A DNA stretch of 64,000 bases from Hymenobacter sediminicola (GTDB lineage: Bacteria; Bacteroidota; Bacteroidia; Cytophagales; Hymenobacteraceae): the NCBI RefSeq assembly GCF_014250515.1, contig NZ_CP060202.1, positions 3,979,501-4,043,500 of the forward strand, read 5' to 3'. Below are positions 10,244 through 12,809 of this stretch, piece by piece; the first letter of the stretch is position 1, and every line of letters begins with the position of its first letter. The notes under the pieces are model-generated. The model worked only from the letters and a program-made list of their open reading frames with translations. It was not told the DNA's origin and did not search any database. The position numbers and the translations under genes are program-made.

Positions 10244-10492
10244 AAAGCAGAGAAATGAGCGGGATTCAAACGCTAAACGGCAGGTACACCGCTCCGGCAG
10301 AAAAGGAAACAACTAAACGATCAACTTGCTTTTTTACACGCCAGACAGCTGCTCTATTCTGTTGAACCAGCCAATTTTCCCGACGAGCATTTGCCTATAA
10401 AGATAGGAGTTGTATTCGTTTGCCCTGAGCCGCTGGGAAAGTCTTCCTCGGTGTAACGGGCACTTTTTTTAAAATTATGAGGTACCTTTACC

Positions 10493-10500
10493 AATCCTAT
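10493..10500 (+). promoter_or_regulatory. -7-like box before tatA
   Basis: TACCTTTA differs from TAnnTTTG in the last base. It makes start codons at or before 10500 unlikely for the first tatA. Confidence 0.35.
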
Positions 10501-10562
10501 TGTATGTGCGTATGCGTACACTAGGCTTTCAACTCCCAATCGGGCTCATGCCCTCCTCCAGT

Positions 10563-10781
10563 ATGTTACTTTCCTCGCTTTTCCTGATCGGCAATTTCGG
10601 TACGACCGAGATTCTGCTGATTGTAGTTGCTATTATTCTGCTGTTTGGTGCCAAACGTATTCCAGAACTGTTCCGGGGAATGGGCCAGGGCATCCGCGAG
10701 TTCAAGGACGCCTCAAAGGAGGAAAAGCCAGAGTTTCGTGACCGTCCGGTGAATCCTAACGACTCCAACCAGCCTCGCTAA
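10563..10781 (+). CDS. tatA: twin-arginine translocase subunit TatA/E (first copy)
   Basis: A 72-residue TatA-type protein: N-terminal membrane helix (TEILLIVVAIILLFG), the FGAKRIPELFRGMGQGIREF hinge and amphipathic helix, then a polar tail. TatA oligomers form the size-adaptable conduit that carries folded proteins across the inner membrane. I place the start at 10563 (MLLSSLFLIGNFG); ATGs at 10512 and 10548 in the same frame remain possible. It is followed after 15 bp by a second tatA gene and then gatA, probably one transcript. No tatC is in the window. Confidence 0.88.
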   Translation: MLLSSLFLIGNFGTTEILLIVVAIILLFGAKRIPELFRGMGQGIREFKDASKEEKPEFRDRPVNPNDSNQPR

Positions 10782-10796
10782 CAACGCACCCACACC

Positions 10797-11204
10797 ATGC
10801 AAACGCCACTTCTTTTTATTGGCGACATTGGGGGTAGTGAGCTGATGCTCATCCTGGTCGTCATTCTTATCTTCTTTGGAGCCAACAAGATTCCTGAGTT
10901 GGCTCGTGGCCTCGGCAAAGGCATCCGGGAGTTCAAAGATGCTTCTCGTGAAATCCGCAGCGAATTTGAAAACGCCGGCCAGCCCCAACAGCCCTACCAG
11001 CAGCAGTTCAACCAGAACTACGTAGCACCGGCTCCGGAGGTGGCACCTCAGCCTCTGCCCGATGACGCTTACACGCCTTCTGACGCCGCTCCGGTTTCGC
11101 CCGGCACTGCCTACGTTCCGCCGGTAGCTCCTCCCATGGATGGTGGTATTACGCCGCCAGTAGCTCCTGCAGCTGAGCGTCCCCGTCTTGACCAAATGTC
11201 CTAA
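10797..11204 (+). CDS. tatA: twin-arginine translocase subunit TatA/E (second copy)
   Basis: A 135-residue paralog of the preceding gene: membrane helix SELMLILVVILIFFG, hinge GANKIPELARGLGKGIREFK, the same FKDAS(R/K)E continuation, then a long Pro/Gln/Ala-rich tail (from about residue 62) that the first copy lacks. The longer tail may mark it as the TatB-like partner of the pair, as TatB proteins usually carry longer cytoplasmic tails; that is only an inference. gatA starts 14 bp downstream. Confidence 0.88.
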   Translation: MQTPLLFIGDIGGSELMLILVVILIFFGANKIPELARGLGKGIREFKDASREIRSEFENAGQPQQPYQQQFNQNYVAPAPEVAPQPLPDDAYTPSDAAPVSPGTAYVPPVAPPMDGGITPPVAPAAERPRLDQMS

Positions 11205-11218
11205 CTGATTTATTCGAT

Positions 11219-12655
11219 TTGAGACGCTTTCATTCTCTCACGGAAGTTCGCCACGAGCTGACGGCAGGCACCACGACCTGCCGTCAGCTCGTGGAGTATT
11301 ATCTGGACAACATTGAGCGGCAGAATGGCCGCCTCAATGCTTTTCTGGAAGTATGGCCCGATGAAGCACGTGCCCAGGCTGATGCCATAGATGCTAAACT
11401 GGCGGCCGGTACGGCCGGCAAGCTGGCTGGTATGGTTATCGGGCTGAAGGATGTGCTTGCCTACAAAGACCACGCCTTACAAAGCAGCAGCCACATCCTG
11501 GACGGCTTTAAGTCGTTATACACTGCTTCGGCGGTGCAAAGGCTACTGGATGAGGATGCCATCTTCATCGGCCGCCAGAACTGCGACGAGTTTGCAATGG
11601 GCGCTTCCAACGAGACGTCTTATTTCGGGCCGGTACGCAATGCCTTGGACGAAAAGCGGGTTTCGGGTGGTTCTTCAGGAGGCTCGGCTGTAGCGGTACA
11701 AGCCGATATGTGCTTGGCTTCTATCGGTTCGGACACAGGTGGGTCGGTGCGTCAGCCAGCGGCTTTCTGCGGCATTGTCGGCTTTAAGCCTACATACTCG
11801 CGTATTTCTCGCTATGGTCTGGTTGCCTACGCCTCGTCGTTTGACCAGATTGGTACGCTCACCCGCTCTGTAGATGATGCGGCGCTGCTACTGGAAGTAA
11901 TGGCCGGTGCCGATAACTTCGATAGCACTGCCAGCCAGCGTGATGTACCCTCTTACAGCCAACTACTGGAACCGGCACCACACTACCGCATCGGCTATAT
12001 CCGTGATGCAGTAGAACGCCCCGGCCTCAATCCAGAGATAAAAGAAGCACTGGAGCACAAGCTGGAAGAGCTACGTGGCCAAGGCCATGTGGTAGACGCG
12101 GTGGATTTTCCCTACCTCGACTACATGGTGCCTACCTATTACATCCTGACCACCGCCGAAGCCAGCTCCAACCTGAGTCGCTTTGATGGGGTGAAGTATG
12201 GCTACCGGGCTCCGGATGCTACTGACCTAGCTTCGCTCTACAAAAAGACTCGCTCACAAGGATTTGGCCCGGAAGTGCAACGCCGTATTCTGCTAGGCAC
12301 CTTTGTGCTTTCGGCTGACTATTACGACGCATACTACACCAAAGCGCAGCAGGTACGCCGACTCATCAAGGACAAAACTGACGAATTACTTCGCCAGTAC
12401 GATTTCTTGGTGTTGCCAACCGCGCCTACCACGGCCTTCCGTATTGGGGAGGTGAACAAAGACACCCTGGCCATGTATCTGGCCGATATATTTACGGTGC
12501 AGGCATCACTAGCTGGCGTACCGGCCGTGTCGGTACCCGCGGGCAATGACTCGGAAGGGTTGCCAATTGGGCTGCAGGTTATAAGTGGCGCGTTCCGCGA
12601 AGAACATCTTCTGGCCTTCGCCAAATCCCTTACGGAAACCTTGACTCCGGCATAA
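11219..12655 (+). CDS. gatA: Asp-tRNA(Asn)/Glu-tRNA(Gln) amidotransferase subunit A
   Basis: GatA is the glutaminase subunit of GatCAB, which converts mischarged Glu-tRNA(Gln) or Asp-tRNA(Asn) into the correct aminoacyl-tRNA. It is an amidase-signature enzyme of 478 residues with the Lys-Ser-Ser triad: Lys in IGLKDVLAYKDH, the glycine/serine motif GGSSGGSAVAV, and the acyl-enzyme Ser in GSDTGGSVRQPAAFCG, followed by GFKPTYSRISRYGL. The only usable start is TTG at 11219. Codons 11-26 contain a perfect 18-bp inverted repeat (see separate entry). A strong terminator follows the stop. gatB and gatC are not in the window. Confidence 0.95.
   Translation: MRRFHSLTEVRHELTAGTTTCRQLVEYYLDNIERQNGRLNAFLEVWPDEARAQADAIDAKLAAGTAGKLAGMVIGLKDVLAYKDHALQSSSHILDGFKSLYTASAVQRLLDEDAIFIGRQNCDEFAMGASNETSYFGPVRNALDEKRVSGGSSGGSAVAVQADMCLASIGSDTGGSVRQPAAFCGIVGFKPTYSRISRYGLVAYASSFDQIGTLTRSVDDAALLLEVMAGADNFDSTASQRDVPSYSQLLEPAPHYRIGYIRDAVERPGLNPEIKEALEHKLEELRGQGHVVDAVDFPYLDYMVPTYYILTTAEASSNLSRFDGVKYGYRAPDATDLASLYKKTRSQGFGPEVQRRILLGTFVLSADYYDAYYTKAQQVRRLIKDKTDELLRQYDFLVLPTAPTTAFRIGEVNKDTLAMYLADIFTVQASLAGVPAVSVPAGNDSEGLPIGLQVISGAFREEHLLAFAKSLTETLTPA
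11251..11294. repeat. 18-bp perfect inverted repeat within gatA
   Basis: CCACGAGCTGACGGCAGG (11251-11268) and CCTGCCGTCAGCTCGTGG (11277-11294) are exact reverse complements with an 8-base loop. The structure lies in the translated region 33-76 bases after the start codon. There is no U-run after it, so it is not a standard terminator. Confidence 0.85.
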
Positions 12656-12673
12656 ACAGGCTGTTTTTAGCAT

Positions 12674-12723
12674 AAAAGCCAAAACGACGAGTGGTGCCTG
12701 CCACTCGTCGTTTTGGCTTTTTA
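12674..12723 (+). terminator. strong terminator after gatA
   Basis: AAAAGCCAAAACGACGAGTG pairs with CACTCGTCGTTTTGGCTTTT around a short loop and is followed by further T. It is one of the most stable terminators in the window. Confidence 0.9.
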
Positions 12724-12809
12724 CCTTGCAGTTGTACTTGCGCTGAGTATATTTAACCCGATTTGAATCAGGGCCTTTCGTTTTATAACACGATACCCCG
12801 GACAAGGAA

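Follow-up and report, generated by a model that had tools for sequence, protein, structure and literature searches.

A hairpin within the gatA coding sequence of Hymenobacter is very probably a selected RNA structure

Three described systems come closest to the element reported here. The RNase III sites of Escherichia coli betT are stem-loops proposed to act on the mRNA that contains them (PMC4067347). Mitochondrial genes of Nematomorpha contain perfect inverted repeats with both arms coding for conserved residues, and in those termed 'phase 2' palindromes codon position 2 stands opposite codon position 2 (PMC6649704). In Flavobacterium johnsoniae, which belongs to the same phylum as Hymenobacter and does not use Shine-Dalgarno sequences, start regions carry less structure between about -20 and +20, and initiation is tuned by structure around the start codon within this zone (PMC6847099).

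The hairpin studied here lies in gatA of Hymenobacter sediminicola, within a window of 64,000 nucleotides (the whole stretch of DNA analysed, from contig NZ_CP060202.1). Like the betT sites, it is a stem-loop proposed to act on the message that carries it, but it is known from its evolutionary pattern alone and its stem sits at codons 9-28. It shares with the Nematomorpha palindromes a perfect repeat inside a gene, arms that code for conserved residues, and the position 2 register. However, those palindromes are numerous, reach up to 284 bp, and belong to animal mitochondria, whereas here a single bacterial gene carries a single short stem, found genus-wide with co-changes and nested losses. 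Relative to the zone described in F. johnsoniae, the gatA element begins just past -20 to +20 and leaves the zone open. Among the papers listed in searches on Hymenobacter, gatA hairpins, and coding-region RNA structure, judged partly by title, we found no account of this hairpin.

A perfect stem near the gatA start codon

The relevant features of the window are as follows, with positions counted from its first letter.

10500-10781, plus strand: first tatA-family gene, a mechanical ORF with its family match from residue 33
10797-11204, plus strand: second tatA-family gene, with its stop 14 nt 5' of the gatA start
11219-12655, plus strand: gatA, Asp/Glu-tRNA amidotransferase subunit A, with a TTG (UUG) start
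11243-11302, plus strand: whole element including the weak lower helix, containing the conserved rare codons GTT10 and TAT27
11243-11249 with 11296-11302, plus strand: lower helix, register read by eye
11246-11248, plus strand: conserved rare codon GTT10, in the lower helix
11251-11268, plus strand: 5' arm, gatA codons 11-17
11253-11292, plus strand: genus-wide core of 16 pairs, 11253-11268 pairing with 11277-11292
11269-11276, plus strand: loop of 8 nt, varying freely in sequence among species (TGGTACCA in locus L008)
11277-11294, plus strand: 3' arm, gatA codons 20-26
11297-11299, plus strand: conserved rare codon TAT27, in the lower helix

The gatA ORF scored 555 bits against TIGR00132 (cut-off 481.1), and the closest named gatA found was that of H. 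duratus BT646 (98%). Two tatA-family genes stand in tandem 5' of it, at 10500-11204, and the true start of the first may lie further in than 10500. A pattern search placed a tatA-like motif upstream of gatA in 142 of 142 genes, outgroups included. Directly past the gatA stop, a strong inverted repeat with a T-run (12675-12720) drew several chance Rfam matches and is likely an intrinsic terminator.

A preliminary description of this DNA had reported an 18-bp perfect stem with an 8-base loop in codons 11-26 of gatA, near the TTG, and the exact arms were confirmed. All 18 pairs are Watson-Crick and the arms are 100% complementary, with the outermost two pairs of the window's stem not general in the genus. 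The codons of the two arms face one another with position 1 opposite position 3 (CAC/GTG, GAG/CTC, CTG/CAG, ACG/CGT, and GCA/TGC). Below the stem, the lower helix consists of G-C or G.U, A-U, G.U, U-A, and C-G around A.A and U.U mismatches (in ORF numbering, A27-U82, G28.U81, U29-A80, U30.U79, and C31-G78). Together they make an irregular helix of roughly 21 pairs in an element of about 60 nt that lies 25-84 nt into the gene, counted from the start codon's first base. RNAalifold recovered only part of the core and did not predict the lower helix. Across the five counted pairs of the lower helix, 97.8% of cells were paired; four of the five changed on one side alone and none on both. TAC27 and GTA10 are avoided, although the former would make a G-C pair and the latter A-U. 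Either weakness is required of the lower helix, or these U's are recognised by something. A pure stability model does not account for the retention of U81 and U30, where Watson-Crick pairs would be synonymous.

The stem had also been called very unlikely by chance, which two measures bore out. When residues were held fixed and codons were drawn at gatA codon frequencies, 18 Watson-Crick pairs arose in 3 of 200,000 draws (P = 1.5e-5). The fold of 131 nt had z = -5.3, and none of 200 dinucleotide shuffles was equally stable. We then scanned 464 kb of the same genome (the window plus further stretches, with 418 kb in ORFs of at least 100 codons) for perfect stems with loops of 3-15 nt. The gatA hairpin was the longest within an ORF and one of only four of at least 11 bp; two of the other three fall within 22 nt of a called start and may be upstream of the real one.

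Searching the genome with a covariance model (described below) turned up gatA alone, with further copies absent up to an E of 10 among the 150 of 5,246 first-look candidates scored, and a dispersed, REP-like repeat was rejected on this result. Rfam 15 returned nothing at gathering score over the hairpin in a search of 10400-12800, which led us to reject a known RNA family; two minus-strand microRNA-precursor matches there (E of 0.39 and 3.4) were far below their gathering scores. A transcription terminator was likewise rejected for the gatA stem, as a T-run is absent 3' of it.

Distribution, gain, and loss among relatives

We collected 192 loci, all with a gatA match, from 80 named loci, further loci, and 60 genome stretches, covering part of 120 genus genomes. 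These yielded 142 distinct gatA starts. The ingroup comprised Hymenobacter and a sister genus, g5, whose genes coincide with records of Hymenobacter edaphi, H. busanensis, and Solirubrum puertoriconensis, among others. The outgroup was formed by 21 genes of four genera (g2, g3, g4, and g6), including Adhaeribacter and Pontibacter records.

With the line between stem-bearing and stemless genes drawn by eye, the stem was present at the same gatA codons in 112 of 121 distinct ingroup genes and in none of the 21 outgroup genes. Stem-bearing genes had 13-18 Watson-Crick pairs out of 18 (14-18 counting G.U), compared with 8-12 pairs counting G.U in the nine stemless genes and 4-13 in the outgroup. 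Mean pairing in stem-bearing genes was 16.9, against 12.5 expected from codon choice, while the outgroup mean of 7.8 equaled its expectation of 7.8. The preliminary description had raised two possible objections, that close relatives might encode these residues yet lack the stem and that the hairpin might be an assembly artefact. The first does not hold for a stem that such a large share of relatives keep, and the second is excluded by 112 distinct genes from many independent assemblies.

A covariance model built on 80 distinct stem regions matched 117 of the 120 genus genomes, 109 of them at gatA with E of 1e-18 or less. The eight weak matches (E from 5e-7 to 0.09) were in genomes with stemless genes. 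The three genomes having no match were 81-82% complete, and one of them (G096) carries the ninth stemless gene. Order-wide, where filters were stricter, the model matched 37 of 291 genomes. Hymenobacter or g5 accounted for 35, and the other two matches were weak (E of 0.006 and 0.045). Some relatives had additional weak matches beyond gatA, with a third or fourth match in a few of the 120 genus genomes. Five that we inspected (in G112, G130, G058, G028, and G260) were short inverted repeats lacking the gatA flanks, two of them in no open frame of at least 80 codons; judged by their letters, these five are unrelated to the gatA element. The one in G112 (L228:836-892) is a perfect hairpin that by chance has ACGAGCTGGC in common with the gatA stem.

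With the outgroup as root of the gatA tree, parsimony required three changes in all: a single gain, on the branch leading to Hymenobacter and g5, and two losses. One loss affected a clade of eight genes; its sisters, L166 and L167, carry perfect stems (support 98). The other affected the single gene L100.

The preliminary description had suggested that the stem might tune gatA relative to upstream tatA, and this idea drew weak support. In all nine stemless genes, tatA and gatA lie 123-311 nt apart, and the gap contains, as judged by eye, a hairpin resembling a terminator together with a T-run. The tatA stop lay at most 36 nt upstream of gatA in 95 of 112 stem-bearing genes versus 0 of 9 stemless genes. 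Loss of the stem is thus confined to genes in which gatA now stands apart from tatA. However, this amounts to two events, and 17 stem-bearing genes have gaps above 60 nt, some with terminators, although one (L157) is probably misread as separated. Lineages that kept the stem despite separation include L117/L118/L164 and L166/L167. A comparison of stem loss with tatA separation over independent pairs gave 1.2 versus 0.0 of 7 and had no power. As a separate observation, L117, L118, and L164 carry a long imperfect hairpin and six T between tatA and gatA, with the gatA stem kept.

UUG was used by 116 of the 121 ingroup genes (107 of 112 stem-bearing and 9 of 9 stemless), and AUG occurred in only five g5 genes, all separated from tatA. 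These five have one or two core mismatches in addition to ATG in place of TTG; four g5 genes without a tatA gap likewise have one core mismatch. The outgroup genes, which are without the stem, have tight tatA-gatA spacing in 19 of 21 cases and a UUG start in 14 of 21. Neither tight spacing nor UUG therefore requires the stem, because stemless outgroups have both and all nine stemless ingroup genes keep UUG. A device needed by all tatA-gatA operons was rejected on the grounds that outgroups have the spacing without the stem.

Frozen silent codons and the pattern of pairing

We counted codon changes on a gatA tree built without codons 1-36, using the 296 columns in which at least 95% of the 112 stem-bearing genes had one residue. 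Only codons 13, 14, 23, 24, and 27 showed zero change, while the median column changed 11 to 31 times depending on the residue. Codon 24 was CTC in 112 of 112 genes, although CTC makes up 18% of leucine codons. Similarly, codon 27 was TAT in 111 of 112 (20% of tyrosine codons), and codon 10 was GTT in 92 (8% of valine codons) and ATT in 16. Because the 112 genes had been picked for having the stem, we repeated the count on all 121 genes over the 342 columns in which 85% or more of the genes had the same residue. Of the ten slowest columns, eight were codons 9, 13, 14, 17, 23, 24, 26, and 27 of the element, which changed 1-3 times where the median was 25, and the remaining two were codons 122 and 240. 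A second slow silent-site patch lies elsewhere in gatA, at 11579-11593 (codons 121-125, N-C-D-E-F).

Codons 10 and 27 played no part in choosing the stem-bearing genes. Among the nine stemless genes, codon 10 ended in T in none, and codon 27 was TAT in one and coded for His in six. These altered codons imply that the flanks were released along with the stem, with the caveat that the nine genes fall in two lineages and so are not nine independent cases.

Pairing within the 16-pair core was tallied over 1,792 cells from the 112 genes. We observed 1,648 Watson-Crick, 113 G.U, 10 A.C, and 21 other mismatched cells, whereas codon choice alone would give about 135 G.U, 129 A.C, and 390 other mismatches. 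Hence, A.C was depleted about 13-fold on the mRNA strand, with G.U near expectation. Inferred steps on the tree comprised 18 from Watson-Crick to G.U and 16 in reverse, 5 from Watson-Crick to A.C, 5 two-step changes from one Watson-Crick pair to another, 8 that led to other mismatches, of which 3 began at Watson-Crick and 5 at G.U, and 2 that restored a pair from another mismatch. In total, 13 of 54 steps led to A.C or other mismatches. In the true register 98.1% of cells were paired, compared with 27-61% in slid registers.

The preliminary description had proposed looking for compensatory synonymous changes in related species, and these were found, both as coupled codons and as the two-step Watson-Crick changes. 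The combination ACG15-CGT22 occurred in 63 of 112 genes, GCG15-CGC22 in 23, and other combinations in 26. In L106, an Arg-to-Cys codon, TGC22, faces GCA15, while relatives have GCG15. An ancestry-aware test of covariation between T15 and R22 over independent pairs gave 4.3 versus 0.5 of 7 with a median p of 0.22; this test lacks power and its result is only suggestive. Double change affected 3 pairs (reached in 10 of 500 shuffles) and 24 cells (reached in 0 of 500). Two slid registers also have 24 and 26 double-changed cells, and the double-change count alone consequently proves little.

That G.U was tolerated while A.C and other mismatches were mostly purged implies the stem was selected as RNA of the mRNA strand, rather than as a DNA palindrome or a hidden ORF. 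Taking the comparative evidence together, we hold with high confidence that the hairpin is a selected RNA structure in Hymenobacter and its sister genus.

Possible roles of the element

From sequence comparisons, we infer a cis-acting role for the hairpin. It may well control gatA on the tatA-gatA message, working mainly on translation, a proposal in which our confidence falls a little short of even. Ribosomes ending tatA, whose stop is usually 6-36 nt upstream, or freshly bound ribosomes would initiate at the weak UUG. The stable upper stem would lie beyond the footprint of the initiating ribosome, and the weakness of the lower helix would keep the start site open. The stem would then act as a barrier setting ribosome passage right after initiation at gatA. 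Such a barrier might either hold the ribosome over the UUG or brake early elongation, so that GatA would not be over-made, and it might raise or lower net output.

The main rivals of this translational control are RNase III processing and a protein-binding site, either of which we consider unlikely. Slowed early ribosomes, processing, and protein binding had all been among the roles suggested in the preliminary description, and each stays a candidate here. In the former, cleavage by RNase III or another double-strand-specific nuclease would set the life of gatA mRNA or split tatA from gatA. About two helical turns is the size preferred by double-strand-specific nucleases such as RNase III, and the irregular stem of roughly 21 pairs, lower helix included, comes to about that length. 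The loop is free in sequence while the stem is conserved, which also fits a nuclease site, and betT is reported to have a stem-loop RNase III site, one that sets mRNA stability (PMC4067347). However, cleavage at this position would break the gatA reading frame, and it could therefore only lower GatA.

The hairpin might, at a similarly low probability, be bound by a regulatory RNA-binding protein, perhaps in autogenous control by the tRNA-binding GatCAB. Its lower helix keeps U30.U79 and G28.U81 even though GTA or TAC would pair better, which suggests recognition beyond stability, and within its own genome the covariance model matches gatA alone. The lack of conservation in the loop argues against a protein site. 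More speculative still, and rather improbable, is a clade-specific RNA switch. In such a switch, the hairpin would gate the passage of ribosomes from tatA on to the gatA UUG, or would be bound by GatCAB or another tRNA-handling factor such that amidotransferase supply feeds back on its own message, with the conserved U30 and U81 as part of the recognition.

Explanations other than RNA structure fared worse. A DNA-level element (a cruciform, operator, or other protein-binding palindrome) could account for the perfect palindrome in the window and the many invariant core letters among relatives. Yet a DNA palindrome would not distinguish G.T from A.C, so the observed 113 versus 10 cells (expected 135 and 129) contradict it; the arms also co-vary and the conserved flanks are asymmetric. 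It was rejected on the asymmetry between G.U and A.C, and we regard it as very improbable. Even less credible is a functionless palindrome made and kept perfect by template switching during replication. Template switching is documented (PMC8794818) and may explain the stem's origin. Likewise, the trace of a small inversion-duplication, as had been proposed earlier, may describe how the stem arose but does not explain its long conservation. As the keeper of the stem, template switching predicts arms that change jointly rather than codons unchanged across 112 genes, and it leaves TAT27 and GTT10, which are outside the arms, and the persisting G.U pairs unexplained; it was rejected on the frozen codons. 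An overlapping second reading frame behind the silent-site constraint, the least plausible candidate, was rejected on frame openness: one antisense frame is stop-free across 69 nt in 104 of 112 genes, but it is open over 210 nt in just 52 of 112, the other two plus-strand frames are open over 69 nt in 32 and 46 of 112, and no such frame predicts pairwise co-change.

It is hard to prove that an RNA structure is conserved within coding sequence, and about a hundred species make gatA a clear case. Here, an ordinary enzyme gene shows one gain, two losses, frozen silent codons, and co-changing codon pairs. The gatA hairpin, from a phylum in which ribosomes work without Shine-Dalgarno pairing, illustrates that selection can act on protein, codon choice, and RNA shape at once.
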